DNA of 48,405 nucleotides from an uncultured Bacteroidia bacterium (lineage in GTDB: Bacteria > Bacteroidota > Bacteroidia > Bacteroidales > UBA932): assembly GCA_902762435.1 (NCBI GenBank), contig CACWOH010000015.1, positions 1 to 48,405 of the forward strand. The letters run 5' to 3'. The notes beneath the pieces were generated by a model. That model worked only from the letters and a program-made list of their open reading frames with translations, did not search any database and had not been told where the DNA came from. This document shows positions 34,450 to 41,358 of the stretch, piece after piece. How positions within the stretch are numbered: position 1 is the stretch's first letter; the number at the start of each line of letters is the position of its first letter. A program made the position numbers and the translations under genes.

Positions 34450-35034
34450 TTATTTCCAATCAATTCCGGACCAGATGGCGTCCGCGAGCATCTGCGTACC
34501 GGCCCGTTGCGGATGGACCCCGTCCCGGCAATACCGTCTGTCGGTGAACAGGTCCTGCAGGTCCACCAGTTCCAATTCCATTTCCGCCGCCAGTGCGCGG
34601 ATGGCCGGACGCACGCCGTTTTCCATATTCTCCGGAAGGACACCCAGGATGGGAATCCCCCCGACGGGGAAAACGCGGATGGGGGCGATCAGGATGACGC
34701 GCGGCGCGGACGGGAGCGCCCGATAGGATTCGACGATGCGGCGGTAGTCCCTGCGGAAGATTTCTGGGTCCCAGTTGCGGGATTTGGTATCGTTGGTCCC
34801 GAGCATCAGCAGGACGATGTCCGGATTCCACGCCAGGCTCTCCCGGTAAGCCCGTTTGCTGACATAGGGCGTATCGGCATCGAACCGGGCCGCGGCGTCG
34901 TTGTAGCCGAAATTCCGCACCTCATATCCAGGCCCAAGTTTCTCCTGGAGAAGCGCCGGATAACTCTGCCGCCAGGGATTCAGCAGCGTGAAACCCCAGG
35001 TGATACTGTCCCCTATGCATGCGACGCGTATCAT
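34450..35034 (-). CDS. SGNH/GDSL hydrolase
   Basis: A 194-residue cytoplasmic esterase-type protein: block I CIGDSITWGF with the Ser, block II NFGYNDAAAR with Gly, block III LLMLGTNDTKS with Asn, and block V DGVHPQRAG with Asp and His. It lacks a signal peptide. SGNH enzymes deacylate sugars or lipids; a sialate or carbohydrate esterase is possible. Its start overlaps the stop of the first CDF gene by four bases (ATGA), and the C45 gene starts 15 bases after its stop, so all are on one mRNA. Confidence 0.83.
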   Translation of the reverse strand: MIRVACIGDSITWGFTLLNPWRQSYPALLQEKLGPGYEVRNFGYNDAAARFDADTPYVSKRAYRESLAWNPDIVLLMLGTNDTKSRNWDPEIFRRDYRRIVESYRALPSAPRVILIAPIRVFPVGGIPILGVLPENMENGVRPAIRALAAEMELELVDLQDLFTDRRYCRDGVHPQRAGTQMLADAIWSGIDWK

Positions 35035-35927
35035 TCCATATCCTGTTTTTGCGGCTCCATGTGGATGATGATATGGGAGCCCTTCCCGAAACGCTCTTCG
35101 AAAAGCCGCTCGATCGAAGAGGCTTTTTCGTGTGCCTCGCTCAGCGGCATCCGGCCGTCCAGGCGGATGTGAACCTCGGCGGCGATGTGGCTGCCGATGC
35201 GCCGCGTACGGAGGTTATGGGGCTCCGAGACGCCGCCGACGGACCCGACGATGTCCAGGATCTCCTTTTCGGTATCTTCGGGCAGCGACTGCTCCGTCAG
35301 TTCCCCGAGGCTGGGTCCCAGCAGATCCCAGGCCACCTTTACCAGCATCGCGCCCACGACGATGGAGGCGACGGGATCCAGCACCGTCCAGCGCTCGCCC
35401 AGGAAGATGGCTCCGGCGATACCGATGGCCGCACCGATGGACGAAAGGGCGTCGGAACGGTGATGCCAGGCGTTGGCGACGACGGCCGGCGACTGGAGTT
35501 TCTTTCCCCGGCGGGACGTATATTGATACAGGATTTCCTTGACGGCGATGGAGACCAGGGCGCCCCAGAGGGCGATCTTTCCGGGCGAAGGGAGTGCCTC
35601 TCCCTGCAGCCAGGCGGCGAGTTTTCCGGCGCCGGAAACGACGATGCCCACGGCGGCGGCAGCCAGCGCCAGGCCGATGAACATCGTGGCGACGGTCTCG
35701 AACTTGCCGTGGCCGAAATCGTGCGAACGGTCCTGCGGGCGCGCGCTGACGCCGACGAAAGCCAGCACCACCAGGTCCGTGATGAAATCGGACAGGGAAT
35801 GGACGGCGTCGGCGAGCATGGCGCCGGAGCGGCCCACGGTGCCGGCGACGAACTTGAATCCCACCAGCAGCAGGTTGGCCACGCTTCCCACGAGGGTCAC
35901 CTTGTATATTTCCTTTTCCCGCGTCAT
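35031..35927 (-). CDS. Cation diffusion facilitator (CDF, FieF-like) metal exporter
   Basis: A 298-residue inner-membrane protein from ATG at 35927; an in-frame start at 35948 lies upstream of the -7 element and is unlikely. Metal-site helices: AMLADAVHSLSDFITD (helix 2, with His and Asp) and NAWHHRSDALSSIGA (helix 5, with His and Asp), the HD/HD pattern of FieF- and MamB-like exporters that carry zinc, iron and related ions. HDFGHGKFETVATM follows helix 2. The C-terminal domain includes HNLRTRRIGSHIAAEVHIRL. First gene of the four-gene operon. A second, different CDF ends the same operon. Confidence 0.87.
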   Translation of the reverse strand: MTREKEIYKVTLVGSVANLLLVGFKFVAGTVGRSGAMLADAVHSLSDFITDLVVLAFVGVSARPQDRSHDFGHGKFETVATMFIGLALAAAAVGIVVSGAGKLAAWLQGEALPSPGKIALWGALVSIAVKEILYQYTSRRGKKLQSPAVVANAWHHRSDALSSIGAAIGIAGAIFLGERWTVLDPVASIVVGAMLVKVAWDLLGPSLGELTEQSLPEDTEKEILDIVGSVGGVSEPHNLRTRRIGSHIAAEVHIRLDGRMPLSEAHEKASSIERLFEERFGKGSHIIIHMEPQKQDME

Positions 35928-35936
35928 TTCAAAGGG

Positions 35937-35944
35937 TAAAGATA
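35937..35944 (-). promoter_or_regulatory. Candidate -7 element (TATCTTTA) for the CDF operon
   Basis: Seven of eight bases match TAnnTTTG on the minus strand, 9 bases before the ATG at 35927. Confidence 0.35.
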
Positions 35945-35965
35945 GCATTTTTCCGCTATCAACAG

Positions 35966-35999
35966 AAAAAAGGGAGCAGGCTTTCTGTCGCCTGCTCCC
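35966..35999 (-). terminator. Intrinsic terminator of the hypB-hypA operon
   Basis: A perfect 10-base stem (35972-35981 with 35990-35999, GGGAGCAGGC) around an 8-base loop, followed on the minus strand by six T residues (complement of 35966-35971). It lies 20 bases after the stop of the DUF5692-like gene and separates that operon from the CDF operon. Confidence 0.8.
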
Positions 36000-36019
36000 C
36001 TTTCGGGCCGGAGGTCCGT

Positions 36020-37114
36020 TTAAACGTCGGCGCGGGCCATCGCGTCCTTGTAGTATTTCTGGTTCACGAACACATCCTCCTTGTACGGGTTGATGTGGCG
36101 CTTCCGGGACACGGAAATGATGTAGCAGATGGCGATGACGTTGGTGACGAGCGCCAGGGCGCTGATGACGGTCATCATCGTGGGATTGGCCGCCACCACG
36201 GAAGGATCGACGGTCGTACCCACGGCAGCGGCTTCTCCGCCGGCCGCCTCATAGAGCTTGCTGATGGTATCCACGCCCTCGGGATACAGGACGGGCAGCG
36301 TGGCCCAGGAGAACCACTGGCGGCCATCCTTGAAGGTTTCCTGGAAGAGCGGGAACACCTGGGCGAACATGCACCAGATGGCCAGGGTGTTGGCGCGGTT
36401 CTGGATCCAGCCGCCACGGTTCCAGCAGAGGGCCGCCACGGTCGGGGCGAGCAGCAGCGCGATGCCGCAGTACCAGGAGTGCGTAGGCAGGCAGTTGTAG
36501 GTATAGGCGAAGTTCCAGATGTCGTAGATGACGATATAGACCCAGGTCATGTCCGCCCAGATCATATCCTTCCTGTCCTTGGAGGGATAGACGTTCCACC
36601 AAGCGGTCATACACATGATGTTGATCAGGCCGGCCACGCCGTTCATCACGTTGTGCCAGCCGCCGTACTGCCATACGCCTTCGGAAGTGAGCCACCACTT
36701 GTTCCAGCCCATCACGGCGGATTCGAAGTCGGACACGCAGGCGATGAGGATGTTGATGCCGACGATAATGAAGGGGAACGGCTTGAACCAGTGCTTGGCG
36801 CCGATGCCCCATTCGTACTTGATCATCATGAAACCGATGCACCCGGCCGTAGCCGCATACAGTTTGGCATAGTGGAACCAGCCCTGCATATAGATATGGG
36901 TCTGGTTTTCCAGGGCCCACTGCGCACCGGAACGGACGCCCAGCCAGATGGCGATGAAGTAGGCGGTGAGCGCCACGGGGATGGCGAAGAAGGTGATGAT
37001 GCCGCCCAACTTGGTACGGCGGGCGAATTCATTGAGCAGGATCAGGCCCAGCAGGACCACGATCAGCATGCCCCATTGAGCGAGGGCGTGCTCTCCATAG
37101 ACTTGGAAAAACAT
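36020..37114 (-). CDS. Polytopic inner-membrane protein, DUF5692-like
   Basis: A 364-residue protein with about nine to ten hydrophobic segments (WGMLIVVLLGLILLNEFA, IITFFAIPVALTAYFIAIWL, FPFIIVGINILIACVSDF, and others) and very many Trp and aromatic residues (WNKWWLTSEGVWQYGGWHNV, WADMTWVYIVIYDIWNFAYT). It looks like the DUF5692 family, to which I know no assigned role; the family name is from memory and not searched. A His-containing stretch (GGWHNVMNG; CLPTHSWYC) could bind a cofactor or metal. Last gene of the hypB operon, ending 20 bases before its terminator. In this setting it may be the membrane partner of the iron-sulfur flavoprotein; that is inference. Confidence 0.65.
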   Translation of the reverse strand: MFFQVYGEHALAQWGMLIVVLLGLILLNEFARRTKLGGIITFFAIPVALTAYFIAIWLGVRSGAQWALENQTHIYMQGWFHYAKLYAATAGCIGFMMIKYEWGIGAKHWFKPFPFIIVGINILIACVSDFESAVMGWNKWWLTSEGVWQYGGWHNVMNGVAGLINIMCMTAWWNVYPSKDRKDMIWADMTWVYIVIYDIWNFAYTYNCLPTHSWYCGIALLLAPTVAALCWNRGGWIQNRANTLAIWCMFAQVFPLFQETFKDGRQWFSWATLPVLYPEGVDTISKLYEAAGGEAAAVGTTVDPSVVAANPTMMTVISALALVTNVIAICYIISVSRKRHINPYKEDVFVNQKYYKDAMARADV

Positions 37115-37139
37115 AGATCAGGTTTTTAGTTGGTATATA

Positions 37140-37490
37140 CTATTTGGTTGACAATCGAAGGGTCCGCCGCTCCTTGAGAACGGCATAGAGCGCCCAGGAG
37201 GCGGTCAGCACCAGCGACATGGGAACGCCCACCGTGAGCATTTCGCGGAGCATCACGCCGAAGCCGCCTTCCACGCCCAGCGCGGTGAAGAACGGGAAAC
37301 GCCAACTGAGTTCGCCGTTGATCACGTGGTCCACGACCAGCATCAGGGTGCCGCCCCAGAGCATCTTCTCCAAAGCGGGAAGATGACGCTTGAATACGGA
37401 GGAATCCGGGTTCTTCCGGTACCCGGCACTGTGCCGGCGGTACGCCGTCGTAGCGATCGCCTGCACCAGGGGAACAACAAAACAAGACAT
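37140..37490 (-). CDS. Small inner-membrane protein of unknown function
   Basis: A 116-residue protein, not recognised. A hydrophobic start (FVVPLVQAIATTAYRR), then a soluble stretch with several basic residues (HSAGYRKNPDSSVFKRHLP) and two hydrophobic segments (MLWGGTLMLVVDHVI; GVPMSLVLTASWALYAVL), so two to three membrane passes. It lies between hypA (15-base gap) and the DUF5692-like gene (25-base gap), all on the same strand, and is most likely a small subunit or assembly partner of the large membrane protein that follows. Confidence 0.6.
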   Translation of the reverse strand: MSCFVVPLVQAIATTAYRRHSAGYRKNPDSSVFKRHLPALEKMLWGGTLMLVVDHVINGELSWRFPFFTALGVEGGFGVMLREMLTVGVPMSLVLTASWALYAVLKERRTLRLSTK

Positions 37491-37505
37491 GGTTATTCTT
37501 TCTGT

Positions 37506-37847
37506 TTAAACGATTATTTCTTTGATTTCCACCTCGTTGCCGCGAAGCAGCCAGGTATCCGGGCTGCCGCAGTGCGGGCAGGTCTTCCCGTATCGGACCG
37601 TCTCGAATTCCTGCTGGCAGCCGTCACAGAAACTGACCGCCGGAATGGTATTGACCCGCAGTTCGCAGTCCTTCAGCAGTTCCTCTTTGTCCGCGGCCCA
37701 GCGCCAGCAGTCCGTGAGGTATTCCGGCACCACCATGGATACTTCACCGATGTTCATCACCACGGCGGAGACGTGTTCCACATCATGCTCCCGGGCCGCC
37801 TCCTTGACGTCCCGGATGATGTAGAATACGATTCCGAGTTCGTGCAT
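37506..37847 (-). CDS. hypA: Nickel metallochaperone HypA
   Basis: A 113-residue protein, normal for HypA. The N-terminal MHE nickel site (MHELGIVFYII) fixes the start at 37847. The zinc site has two CxxC pairs, Cys74/Cys77 and Cys90/Cys93 (SFCDGCQQEFE; GKTCPHCGS). HypA hands nickel to [NiFe]-hydrogenase large subunits or urease together with HypB. The ATG shares one base with the TAA of the large iron-sulfur flavoprotein gene, so translation is coupled. No hydrogenase, urease, hypC, hypD, hypE or hypF gene is in the window; its client is open. Confidence 0.9.
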   Translation of the reverse strand: MHELGIVFYIIRDVKEAAREHDVEHVSAVVMNIGEVSMVVPEYLTDCWRWAADKEELLKDCELRVNTIPAVSFCDGCQQEFETVRYGKTCPHCGSPDTWLLRGNEVEIKEIIV

Positions 37848-40669
37848 TATTTCTTGAACAGGATCCGGCCGGTACGCTTGAGCATATACGGGAGGATGGC
37901 GCTGAACTTGTCTTCGGAGGTGATGACGTGGCTGGCTTCGGGATGCTCGCGCTTCAGGTGGATGGCGTCGAACCCGCACTTGGTCGTACAGATGCCGCAG
38001 CCGATACACTTGTTCGGATCCACCACGGACGCACCGCAGCCCAGGCAGCGGGCAGTTTCCCGGCGGACCTGCTCCTCGGTCAGGGTGCCGTGATACTCGC
38101 GGAAGGCATTCTCCGCGGGCTTTTCGCCCGGATCCTGGCGGGAGGAATTGTCGTAGGACGGCACCCGGATGTCGCCTTTGTCCAGCTCGATGAAATCGCG
38201 CCGGTTGCGTCCGATGGTCATATGGCCGTGCTGCACGAACCGGTGCAGCGACTCGGCGGCCTCCTTGCCGGCCGCAATCGCGTCGATGGCGAACTTGGGG
38301 CCGGTAAACACGTCGCCGCCCACGAAGATGTCCGGCTCCGCCGTCTGGTAGGTCAGCTTGTCAGCGACCGGATACACGCCGCGGAAGAATTCCACCTTCG
38401 TATCTTTCAGCAGGTTCTTCAGCAGCACCGTCTGGCCGATGGCGAAGATGACCAGGTCCGCTTCGAGGGTAATCAGCTCGCTCTCATCGTATTGCGGGGC
38501 GAAACGCTTATCCGCGTCATACACGGAGGTGCATTTCTTGAAGACGATGCCGCTCACCTTCCCTTCGCCCAGGACCTCCTTCGGCCCCCAGCCGGGGTTG
38601 ATCACGACGCCGTCCGCGCGTGCCTCGGTGCGCTCCTCGAGCGAGGCCGGCATGATGTCTTCCGTCTCCAGCGAGAGCATCGTCACGGAGGATGCGCCGC
38701 TGCGCTTCGCCACGCGGGCCGCATCGATGGCTACGTTGCCGCCGCCTACCACGACCACCTTGCCGCTCACGGGGACCTTGCCTGTGTTGGCCTCGTGCAG
38801 GAAATCGATGGCCGTCACGGTGCCGGGAAGCGTCTCGCCGGGGATGCCCGGCAGGCGGCCGCCCTGGCAGCCGATGGCCACGTAGAAGCCCTTGTATCCC
38901 TGTTCGCGGAGCTGGGCGATGGTGACGTCCTCCCCCACTTCCACGCCGGTGCGGATCTCCACGCCGATCTCCTTCATCACGTCGATCTCGGCCGCAACGA
39001 CATCCTTCTCCAGCTTGTAGGAAGGGATGCCGTAACGCAGCATGCCGCCCGGCTCTTCATCCTTCTCGAACACCGTGGGCTTGTAACCCATCGTGGCCAG
39101 GTAGTAGGCGCAGCTCAGGCCGGCGGGGCCACCGCCGATGACGGCGATCTTCTCTTCCCAGCGGTCCTGCACGTTGGAACAGGTGTTCACTTCCGGCACG
39201 AAACGGGTTTCGGCGTTCAGGTCCTGCTCCGCGATGAATTTCTTGACGGCGTCGATGGCGACGGGCTGGTCGATGGTGCCGCGGGTGCAGGCATCCTCGC
39301 AGCGGCGGTTGCACACGCGCCCGCACACGGCCGGGAACGGATTCTCCCGCTTGATGAGTTCCAGCGCTTCGCGGTATTTTCCCTCGGCCGCCTTCTTGAG
39401 ATAGCCCTGGACGGCGATGTGCGCCGGGCAGGCGGTCTTGCAGGGCGAAGTGCCGGTGGGATAGCAGTTGATGCGGTTGCGGTCGCGGTAGTCCTCCGTC
39501 CACTTCTCCGGACCCCATTTGGCCGCATCCGGAAGTTCCTGGCGGGGATATTCGATCTCGCCGTGCGAGGTACACAGCTTCTGGCCCAGGCGCACGGCGC
39601 CGGCCGGGCAGTATTCCACGCAGCGGCCGCAGGCCACGCAGTTCTCCTTCTTTACCTCGGCCACGTACGCGCTGCGGGAAAGGTTCGGGGTATTGAACAG
39701 CTGAGAGGTACGCAATGCGTTGCAGATCTTGACGTTGCAGTTGCAGATAGCGAAGATCTTGCCCTCTCCGTCGATGTTGGTGACCTGGTGGACGAAGCCG
39801 TGGTCCTCGGCCTTCTTCAGGATGGCCATGGCCTCGTCGTAGGTAATGTCGTGGCCGCGGCCGGTTTCCCGCAGGTAGTCCGCCATGTCGCCTACGCCGA
39901 TGCACCAGTCGCGGTAATCGTCGGCACAGCCCTCGTCCAGTTTCTTGCGCCCGTAGCGGCAGGAGCAGATGCCCACGCCGATGTGGCCCTCGTATTTCTT
40001 GAGCCAGTAGGAGATATGCTCGATGTCGATGGACTGGTTCTCCATCGAGATGGCCTTCTCTACGGGAATCACGTGCATGCCGATGCCGGCACCGCCCATG
40101 GGCACCATCGGCGTGACCTTCTCCAGCGGGAGGAAGGTCATACGCTCGAAGAACATCGCCAGCTCGGGGTACTTGTCCATCAGGTCCGTGTTCATGTTGG
40201 TGTACTCGGCAGAGCCGGGCACGAACATCGGCACCCAGTAGATGCGGTCCTCCCGGTTGTAGGTGGTACCGGGCACGGGGCCGTCCTTGGTGTATTTGTC
40301 GCCGTAGTCGTATTCCAGCATCCCGTAATAGGCCAGCTTGTCCAGCAGGGCGTCGAAGGAAGTGTCGTCCGGGGTATAGTGCTTCTCCGCATTCCATTGA
40401 TGCAGAAGCGCATACGGACGGTGCTCGCGAACCTTGAGCAGCTTCTTCGGAAGCATGTCCAGCAGCAGGTCCAGGGCGGTTTCCCGCGTTGCGGCATCCA
40501 TCTCGTCCTCGAAGATGCAGGCGAGGCCCCAGTATTCCGGGGCGTCCGTGGTCATCTTGATCTTGCCGGGAACACGGTCCGTGACGTGGCGGACGAACTT
40601 GATCAGTTTCGGGTTCGGATTCTTGTCTCCCTTGTGCCTGGGGACAAATTTGGTGGACATTTCAGGCAT
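37847..40669 (-). CDS. Large iron-sulfur flavoprotein: Fe-S sensor-like N-terminus, GltD-like reductase, ferredoxin domains
   Basis: A 940-residue cytoplasmic protein without signal peptide. Order: a helical unit with winged-helix-like text (FDALLDKLAYYGMLEYDY, about 105-122); a Cys-rich region with GICSCRYGRKK (233-243) and ICNCNVKICN (308-317); a ferredoxin-type cluster CVACGRCVEYCP (344-355); a GltD-type Fe-S domain (about 400-480; CPTGTSPCKTACP-like, CGRVCNRRCEDAC); FAD site IAVIGGGPAGLSCAYY (508-523); NAD(P)H site VVVVGGGNVAIDAA (638-651); FAD end VGGDVFTGPKFAIDAI; and a C-terminal CLGCG plus CIGCGICTTKC (875-898). It looks like an NAD(P)H:acceptor oxidoreductase or electron bifurcation module related to glutamate synthase small subunits. 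Between hypB and hypA, both within one base or a few bases of it. An alternative Met is at residue 4. Confidence 0.78.
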   Translation of the reverse strand: MPEMSTKFVPRHKGDKNPNPKLIKFVRHVTDRVPGKIKMTTDAPEYWGLACIFEDEMDAATRETALDLLLDMLPKKLLKVREHRPYALLHQWNAEKHYTPDDTSFDALLDKLAYYGMLEYDYGDKYTKDGPVPGTTYNREDRIYWVPMFVPGSAEYTNMNTDLMDKYPELAMFFERMTFLPLEKVTPMVPMGGAGIGMHVIPVEKAISMENQSIDIEHISYWLKKYEGHIGVGICSCRYGRKKLDEGCADDYRDWCIGVGDMADYLRETGRGHDITYDEAMAILKKAEDHGFVHQVTNIDGEGKIFAICNCNVKICNALRTSQLFNTPNLSRSAYVAEVKKENCVACGRCVEYCPAGAVRLGQKLCTSHGEIEYPRQELPDAAKWGPEKWTEDYRDRNRINCYPTGTSPCKTACPAHIAVQGYLKKAAEGKYREALELIKRENPFPAVCGRVCNRRCEDACTRGTIDQPVAIDAVKKFIAEQDLNAETRFVPEVNTCSNVQDRWEEKIAVIGGGPAGLSCAYYLATMGYKPTVFEKDEEPGGMLRYGIPSYKLEKDVVAAEIDVMKEIGVEIRTGVEVGEDVTIAQLREQGYKGFYVAIGCQGGRLPGIPGETLPGTVTAIDFLHEANTGKVPVSGKVVVVGGGNVAIDAARVAKRSGASSVTMLSLETEDIMPASLEERTEARADGVVINPGWGPKEVLGEGKVSGIVFKKCTSVYDADKRFAPQYDESELITLEADLVIFAIGQTVLLKNLLKDTKVEFFRGVYPVADKLTYQTAEPDIFVGGDVFTGPKFAIDAIAAGKEAAESLHRFVQHGHMTIGRNRRDFIELDKGDIRVPSYDNSSRQDPGEKPAENAFREYHGTLTEEQVRRETARCLGCGASVVDPNKCIGCGICTTKCGFDAIHLKREHPEASHVITSEDKFSAILPYMLKRTGRILFKK

Positions 40670-40683
40670 ATGATTCTGTGGTT

Positions 40684-41358
40684 TTATTTCTGTTTCCAGT
40701 CCCGGACTTCAGCGAGCAGCCAGTCGGCAAGGTCTTCCACCCCCTCGCCGGTACGGGCGCAGATGGGAATCACTTTCGCACGGGGATTGCGCATCCGCAC
40801 GTTTTCCCGGCACTTGTCCAGGTCGAAGTCGAAATACGGGAGTACGTCCGTCTTGTTGATGACAACGAGGTCGCAGACGGAGAACATCAGCGGGTACTTG
40901 AGCGGCTTGTCGTCCCCTTCCGGAACGGAGAGGATCATCGCATTGCGGACGGCGCCGGTATCGAACTCGGCCGGGCAGACGAGGTTGCCCACGTTCTCCA
41001 GCACGACGAGGTCCACGCCTTCCAGGGGCAGGTTATCCAGGCCCTGGCGGGTCATTTCCGCGTCCAGGTGGCACATGCCGCCAGTGTGGAGTTGGATGGA
41101 TTCTACGCCCGTCTCCTGACGGATTTTGACGGCATCGACGTCGCTGTCGATGTCCGCCTCCATCACTGCGATGCGGAGCCGGTCTTTCAACAGGTTGATC
41201 AGGCGGATCAGTGTCGTGGTCTTCCCGCTGCCGGGCGAAGACATCAGGTTCAGCAGATAGATCCCCTTCCCCTTCAGTTCCCTGCGGAGGTCGGCGGCAT
41301 CCTTCTCATTCTCGGCGAAAACGCTCTTCTTGATTTCAATCACTTTCACTTCATCCAT
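40684..41358 (-). CDS. hypB: Nickel-insertion GTPase HypB
   Basis: A 224-residue GTPase. P-loop SSPGSGKTTTL (40-50), Cys97-His98 in GGMCHLDAEM, which is the metal site of the G domain, ENVGNLVCPAEFDTG (switch region, with the conserved Cys) and NKTDVLPYF (base recognition). No His-rich N-terminus, so it is not a nickel store. HypB drives nickel transfer with HypA. First gene of the operon; 14 bases to the large flavoprotein. A candidate promoter lies upstream. See the finding on the missing hydrogenase. Confidence 0.9.
   Translation of the reverse strand: MDEVKVIEIKKSVFAENEKDAADLRRELKGKGIYLLNLMSSPGSGKTTTLIRLINLLKDRLRIAVMEADIDSDVDAVKIRQETGVESIQLHTGGMCHLDAEMTRQGLDNLPLEGVDLVVLENVGNLVCPAEFDTGAVRNAMILSVPEGDDKPLKYPLMFSVCDLVVINKTDVLPYFDFDLDKCRENVRMRNPRAKVIPICARTGEGVEDLADWLLAEVRDWKQK

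Follow-up and report, generated by a model that had tools for sequence, protein, structure and literature searches.

HypA and HypB are known from the maturation of [NiFe]-hydrogenase and urease, and their genes on either side of a gene for an iron-sulfur (Fe-S) flavoprotein raise the question of which protein they serve there. The three genes, followed by one for a small hydrophobic protein and one for a DUF5692 protein, form an operon at 36020-41358, all on the minus strand, of the window, by which we mean the whole stretch of 48,405 nucleotides analysed (contig CACWOH010000015.1, assembly GCA_902762435.1, an uncultured Bacteroidia bacterium). Literature linked to DUF5692 leads to Acetobacterium wieringae and its putative isoprene reductase, IsrA (PMC10134865), and the 940-residue flavoprotein of the operon is of the same type. 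We believe, with a probability of roughly 0.6, that HypA and HypB (HypAB) supply the N-domain of this flavoprotein with a metal, probably nickel, at a six-cysteine site; the protein itself would be a reductase of conjugated C=C bonds fed by reduced nicotinamide adenine dinucleotide (phosphate), NAD(P)H. That HypAB are the chaperones and the flavoprotein their client is well supported, though not proven.

Linkage of HypA and HypB to the flavoprotein

The tightest connection in the operon is the TAATG junction, in which the flavoprotein stop codon and the hypA ATG share one base; the intergenic gaps, in gene order, are 14, -1, 15 and 25 bases. This coupling stands as the initial annotation described it, as does the same-direction, five-gene arrangement with a strong terminator, with which coordinates, gaps and folding (see below) agree. 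Gene order is kept in relatives as well. Among the best 80 of 406 relatives in named genomes, counting only loci with enough flanking DNA, hypA lies downstream of the flavoprotein gene (isrA) in 76/76 testable cases, hypB upstream in 73/74, DUF5692 downstream in 59/62 (exceptions L086, L096 and L107) and the small-protein gene downstream in 56/62, and of the 58 loci with sufficient DNA on either side, 55 have all three of hypB, hypA and DUF5692. The order hypB-isrA-hypA-DUF5692 recurs across phyla, on a Subdoligranulum variabile plasmid record (62% identity), where the small protein was not found. The scaffolds L157-L164 (MT83xxxx), labelled Bacteriophage sp., are unverified human-faecal sequences, probably bacterial DNA, and served only as extra sequences; viral contigs scanned with the N-domain and DUF5692 alignments gave no relative. 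Throughout the distinct human-faecal records with isrA (6/6), hypA follows isrA, with orders that include isrA-hypA-DUF5692-hypB (L157/L163, two handles for one record), isrA-hypA-hypB-hypB (L164), hypB-isrA-hypA-hypA (L161) and, where neither hypB nor DUF5692 was matched, isrA-hypA alone (L160, L162).

The same partners are inherited together. Across 299 genomes of the window's family (N-domain at E <= 0.001, DUF5692 and HypA over cut-off), the IsrA N-domain is found in 45, DUF5692 in 46 and HypA in 42 (49 at E <= 0.001); N-domain and HypA overlap in 41, N-domain and DUF5692 in 41, HypA and DUF5692 in 41, and all three in 40. HypA is present in 41/45 genomes with the N-domain versus 1/254 without. 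The Fisher p values for co-occurrence, 1e-44 to 3.5e-40, ignore relatedness, and the N-domain carriers except G339 sit in three genera. The single genome with HypA and no N-domain, G520, is probably a broken assembly, because part of isrA survives there (L021). When 296 genomes were sampled from the phylum, DUF5692 was matched in the source genome and in one other, the latter under cut-off.

Other clients were sought in the 29 family genomes of high quality that carry DUF5692 (of 46), source genome included, 27 of which also have the N-domain (not G309 and G586); each search detected its controls in known genomes. The [NiFe]-hydrogenase large subunit was found in 0/29, HypD in 0/29 and urease alpha over the cut-off in 0/29, with three weak sub-cut-off urease stretches of 38-50 residues, one of them in the source genome; HypC, HypE, HypF and nickel enzymes other than those named here were not searched. 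Carbon monoxide dehydrogenase (CODH)/prismane proteins were found in 0/27 IsrA-bearing genomes. The initial annotation's statement that hydrogenase and urease clients are missing, made for the window, thus extends to these genomes. Given the coupling and the lack of another client in these searches, its proposal that HypAB load a metal into a protein of the operon is the best inference, while nickel as that metal is not proven.

It is very improbable that the client of HypAB is a nickel enzyme encoded elsewhere, such as a protein like lactate racemase, and that hypA and hypB merely adjoin isrA. LarA-like proteins, another nickel family, do occur in 12/27 IsrA-bearing genomes at E <= 0.001, over the cut-off in 8 of them, including a weak match of 34.6 bits in the source genome, and this must be set against the flavoprotein as client. 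Outside G545, however, the over-cut-off matches are weak, and 19 of 27 carriers have none; hypA is coupled to isrA, and since the distribution of HypA follows that of IsrA, we reject LarA as the client. LarA is itself matured by LarBCE.

The six-cysteine N-domain and its proposed metal

The flavoprotein consists of an N-domain (residues 1-331) with the six-cysteine site, a Fer4 motif (344-354), a GltD-like flavin adenine dinucleotide (FAD)/NAD(P) module (about 400-815) and a second Fer4 motif (888-898). Pfam recognizes Fer4_20, Pyr_redox_2 and Fer4 motifs, with no match in residues 1-330 among the matches listed (25 of 30), and strong matches to solved relatives are confined to residues ~390-880 (GltD, Nfn, dihydropyrimidine dehydrogenase and related chains). 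Three short designed-repeat-protein matches to residues 1-340 among solved sequences (best E 4e-4) were dismissed as chance-like.

Within the N-domain, C235, C237, C256, C309, C311 and C316 are invariant in 12 full-length IsrA-type rows, which represent 11 distinct proteins with identities as low as 46%; C248 is replaced by threonine in one of the 11 (L157/L163, the same record). The possible site of IsrA likewise has six cysteines, with two CxC motifs at C180/C182 and C254/C256 (PMC10134865). The CxC motifs at 235 and 309 are 74 residues apart, as in the published pair, and the offset of 55 also places the first Fer4 motif, at 289 in published IsrA and 344 here. From this spacing the six-cysteine site is thought to be equivalent to the "cluster V" of IsrA, with C256 and C316 paired with the published cluster V cysteines by conservation only. 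The same paper proposes that HypAB probably insert nickel into IsrA, likens cluster V to P-type and double-cubane clusters and to cluster A of acetyl-CoA synthase (ACS), and notes that A. wieringae ISORED-2 is without [NiFe]-hydrogenase and hypCDEF. On isoprene, IsrA, one HypA and HypB became more abundant (log fold change 6.2 to 10.7), and the neighbours of 988 IsrA homologues include HypA (0.73), HypB (0.56), DUF5692 (0.40) and TetR (0.21) (PMC10134865).

Both chaperones retain metal motifs. HypB (TIGR00073, 239 bits against a cut-off of 121) is a metallochaperone GTPase with the C96-H97...C128 metal motif of the G-domain kept and an N-terminus without a His-rich or Cys-rich extension. HypA, the only HypA match in the whole source genome, keeps Met1-His2-Glu3 and two CxxC motifs; it is divergent, because it passes the Pfam cut-off (PF01155, 107 bits against 28.9) and misses the NCBIfam hypA equivalog cut-off (TIGR00100, 70.1 bits against 88.1). 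The motif roles, including which residues are tied to nickel, are taken from PMC10134865.

The N-domain also exists apart from the FAD module. When 344 genomes of the order were searched with a profile, 17 gave a match: G000 and G790 have long IsrA, 14 genomes have an N-domain ferredoxin standing alone, and G696 has a weak N-terminal match. The stand-alone ferredoxins (L137-L150, L152 and L153; frames of 347-436 codons) come from 14 other genomes of the order Bacteroidales and carry extra cysteines besides the shared ones; when the window protein, L134, L130 and the 16 stand-alone loci are aligned (19 sequences), all six cysteines and C248 are kept. At L130:2443-4555, in G339, a genome with no DUF5692 match, hypA, hypB and a 360-residue N-domain ferredoxin stand in a row with no FAD module. 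This arrangement, a possible minimal HypAB client unit, points to the N-domain as the part that HypAB serve, as support rather than proof. In a plasmid collection one record had the N-domain and two had DUF5692; at 1e-10 the L130 ferredoxin matched no record. Separately, G530, a genome without a HypA match, has an N-domain match in a 340-residue frame (G530:C50:175269-176258), which may be a disrupted gene or an N-domain standing on its own.

Several observations weigh against nickel loading at this site. HypA/HypB were absent from the stretches of 2.1 to 3.6 kb around the 16 stand-alone ferredoxin loci; because these ferredoxins share the cysteine set, the cysteines do not by themselves point to nickel. 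Only one locus shows the order hypA-hypB-ferredoxin; its contig spans 5 kb, in a genome that is 76% complete. PMC10134865 found HypAB not to be associated with its ferredoxin. Four genomes (G488, G526, G530 and G536) have the N-domain and no HypA over the cut-off, possibly through fragmentation. The predicted N-domain model (residues 1-400, 64 close relatives) had a mean predicted local distance difference test score (pLDDT) of 52, with roughly the first 120 residues mostly confident, and gave no view of the site geometry; against PDB folds it matched nothing at E <= 0.001 (best 0.22), with many winged-helix proteins listed, and we claim no fold. The assignment of IsrA rests on induction and comparative genomics, and IsrA homologues occur in other Acetobacterium strains that fail to reduce isoprene (PMC10134865), for which reason isoprene as a substrate is not transferable to the window protein. 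The literature searched contained no metal, cofactor or activity measurement for the IsrA-type family.

Some of these points would also suit a different metal, which we consider unlikely but a serious possibility: HypAB could serve the flavoprotein with Zn, Co or Fe, or assemble an all-iron double-cubane-like cluster, and the protein would then not be a nickel enzyme. Nickel is indicated solely by HypA/HypB homology, with HypA under the TIGR00100 equivalog cut-off, the paralogous ferredoxins share the cysteine set with no hypAB found in their short stretches, and the published likeness of cluster V extends to the P-type and double-cubane clusters besides cluster A. Against this, both chaperones keep the residues that PMC10134865 links to nickel, and the need of an all-iron cluster for HypAB is not obvious. 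Nickel loading of the six-cysteine site is the reading we prefer.

Operon layout, host and candidate reaction

Coordinates of the operon and its features in the window
Feature	Position	Strand	Note
hypB	41358-40684	-	224 aa; TIGR00073 match
isrA-like Fe-S flavoprotein	40669-37847	-	940 aa; domain matches and sequence
Six invariant Cys codons (C235, C237, C256, C309, C311, C316)	39722..39967	-	proposed metal (Ni/Fe-S) site
hypA	37847-37506	-	113 aa; PF01155 match
Small hydrophobic protein	37490-37140	-	116 aa
DUF5692 (PF18948) membrane protein	37114-36020	-	364 aa
Intrinsic terminator, operon end	35966-36000	-	folding z = -5.8

The terminator consists of GGGAGCAGGC, 8 nt and GCCTGCTCCC, followed by a T run; a simple terminator scan did not list the hairpin, which was detected by folding against shuffles (48-base stretch, -28.1 kcal/mol versus -11.9 +/- 2.8). 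Just past it on the same strand lies a cation-efflux (CDF) transporter (35031-35948), which could affect metal balance; among the 80 relatives it has only two matches, both distant (26-28% identity) and on the opposite strand. No flanking family recurs in more than 3 of 18 relative stretches, except frames antisense to operon genes.

The source genome (2.3 Mb, 46 contigs, 95.9% complete) probably belongs to a Bacteroidales of the ruminant gut, to judge from the record titles of the closest relatives. The best 80 of 406 relatives are titled Bacteroidales, Bacteroidia, Bacteroidetes or Paludibacteraceae, and the animals, where named, are ruminants; a gut organ appears in 22 titles, 21 times rumen, reticulum, omasum or abomasum and once cecum, counts that may mirror only the habitat of the lineage and its sampling.

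In the mechanism we infer, HypB (a GTPase) and HypA would acquire the metal (most likely Ni(II)) and insert it in the six-cysteine site of the N-domain. NAD(P)H would reduce FAD in the GltD/NfnB-like module, from which electrons would pass via [4Fe-4S] clusters to the N-domain site, and there a C=C bond would be reduced, that of a conjugated diene if A. wieringae is a guide. The small hydrophobic protein and DUF5692 may be accessory, perhaps in substrate entry, membrane docking or export, rather than obligatory subunits.

The small protein has a hydrophobic stretch at 76-106 and no Pfam or NCBIfam match. The DUF5692 protein (PF18948, 427 bits) is a multi-helix membrane protein in which many polar residues are invariant; its model (mean pLDDT 75.2, predicted template modelling score (pTM) 0.74) has nine helices of >=18 residues and found nothing better than E 1.4 among PDB folds, and we draw no function from it. 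The one sequence match to a solved protein (E 1.6) was dismissed as chance-like.

The initial annotation went further and suggested, as a possibility, a membrane redox complex, in which flavoprotein, small protein and DUF5692 together would be membrane-bound and NAD(P)H-linked. The shared operon, here and in many relatives, and the IsrA N-domain in 41/46 family genomes with DUF5692 speak for such a complex, which we nevertheless regard as quite unlikely: because DUF5692 is separable from IsrA, though the two usually co-occur, the idea is weakened and an accessory role is preferred. DUF5692 lies on a different contig from isrA in at least three genomes (G522, G531, G574) and on the opposite strand in two (G483, G593). 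It occurs without the N-domain in G309, G361, G374 and G586, and in G520 too, but there with the isrA fragment; G309 and G586 are nearly complete, and their loci (L116, L122, L123) show no recurrent neighbour. Conversely, the N-domain occurs without DUF5692 in G339, G488, G530 and G536, and DUF5692 was not seen beside isrA in four gut scaffolds (L160, L161, L162, L164). The human-faecal stretches L158 (7.8 kb) and L159 (6.9 kb) have DUF5692 with no isrA, hypA or hypB match, and DUF5692 is also encoded on a Latilactobacillus curvatus plasmid (L154, CP117684.1), where the IsrA N-domain was not found, the chromosome not having been searched.

Among the conjugated dienes present in the rumen are conjugated linoleic acid (CLA) and conjugated linolenic acids. 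A tentative and rather doubtful extension would make the operon a nickel-iron-sulfur reductase of conjugated dienoic or trienoic fatty acids, acting in ruminal biohydrogenation by uncultured Bacteroidales; unactivated C=C bonds would be hydrogenated at the HypAB-loaded six-cysteine site, with DUF5692 or the small protein aiding access to membrane-bound lipid. Near IsrA homologues of A. woodii and A. fimetarium there is an oleate hydratase gene, and terpenes have been suggested as natural substrates (both PMC10134865). The butyrivibrio CLA oxidoreductase was in 2015 not searchable, databases lacking it though its sequence had been reported, and the ratio of NADH to rumenate is given as 1:1, with no reduced ferredoxin made (PMC4478896). 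The title of a 2011 study cited in PMC9626764 (accessible part) proposes a predominant role for uncultured bacteria, including unclassified Bacteroidales, and the available parts of two CLA reviews mention CLA reductase and name no gene like isrA (PMC12254105, PMC13365329). Butyrivibrio fibrisolvens MDT-5 is described as lacking CLA reductase (PMC12254105). The literature searched offered nothing joining "isoprene reduction" with "linoleic", and biohydrogenation with HypA and HypB returned PMC10134865 only. Oleate hydratase/linoleate isomerase (PF06100) was found in 0/50 genomes (28 with the N-domain, source included), a CLA source not being otherwise sought; the result is thus no help to the fatty-acid proposal, and we count it against it. 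The likely rumen setting still makes for a concrete question, to which the operon supplies a named candidate gene.

Comparison with known systems

The initial annotation presented the operon as a candidate new system, which is too strong, because PMC10134865 already reports the association of HypA, HypB and DUF5692 with IsrA and proposes nickel insertion; the gene set has also been termed a putative diene reductase cluster (PMC12509576). It is an already described kind of system, here with an accessory pair in Bacteroidales. What we add is the survey of absent clients, the co-occurrence in 299 genomes, the invariance of the six cysteines, the pointer from L130 to the N-domain and the separability of DUF5692. 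If HypAB do load nickel here, there would be a HypAB-served class of nickel enzymes outside hydrogenase and urease, and one that reduces unactivated conjugated C=C bonds, as suggested earlier for acetogens.

Compared with HypA/HypB of [NiFe]-hydrogenase or urease maturation, the operon's HypAB share sequence families and metal motifs, whereas HypD, the hydrogenase large subunit and an above-cut-off urease alpha are absent from the 29 genomes. The isr operon of A. wieringae ISORED-2/strain Y (PMC10134865, PMC9765523, PMC12509576) also has both hypA and hypB, and the source genome, like that of ISORED-2, shows no [NiFe]-hydrogenase or HypD. Its IsrA, by the published description, shares the domain plan (N-domain, flanking Fer4 motifs, GltD/NfnB-like FAD-NAD(P) module) and the CxC...CxC spacing of 74 at the constant offset of 55. 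Its order, however, is isrA-hypA-hypB-4Fe4S protein-hypA, without DUF5692, while hypB comes first in the window and hypA is single; the second hypA and the 4Fe-4S N-domain protein that mark the isr operon in the strict sense are absent from 36020-41358. Lacking this ferredoxin paralogue, the window operon adds the small hydrophobic protein and DUF5692, its flavoprotein has 940 residues against 901 in IsrA, and its host is a Bacteroidales. By description and motif spacing, the closest fit is IsrA clade 9, with which the window protein has in common a domain plan of ~900 residues, two CxC motifs 74 apart and hypA/hypB neighbours; clade 9 homologues also have DUF5692 as a neighbour, and Bacteroidetes are named among their hosts (PMC10134865), while TetR, at 0.21 in clade 9 neighbourhoods, has no counterpart in the window operon. 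Finally, NfnB/GltD-type flavoproteins are alike over residues ~390-880, to which the window protein adds the six-cysteine N-domain, a second Fer4 region and its HypAB partners.

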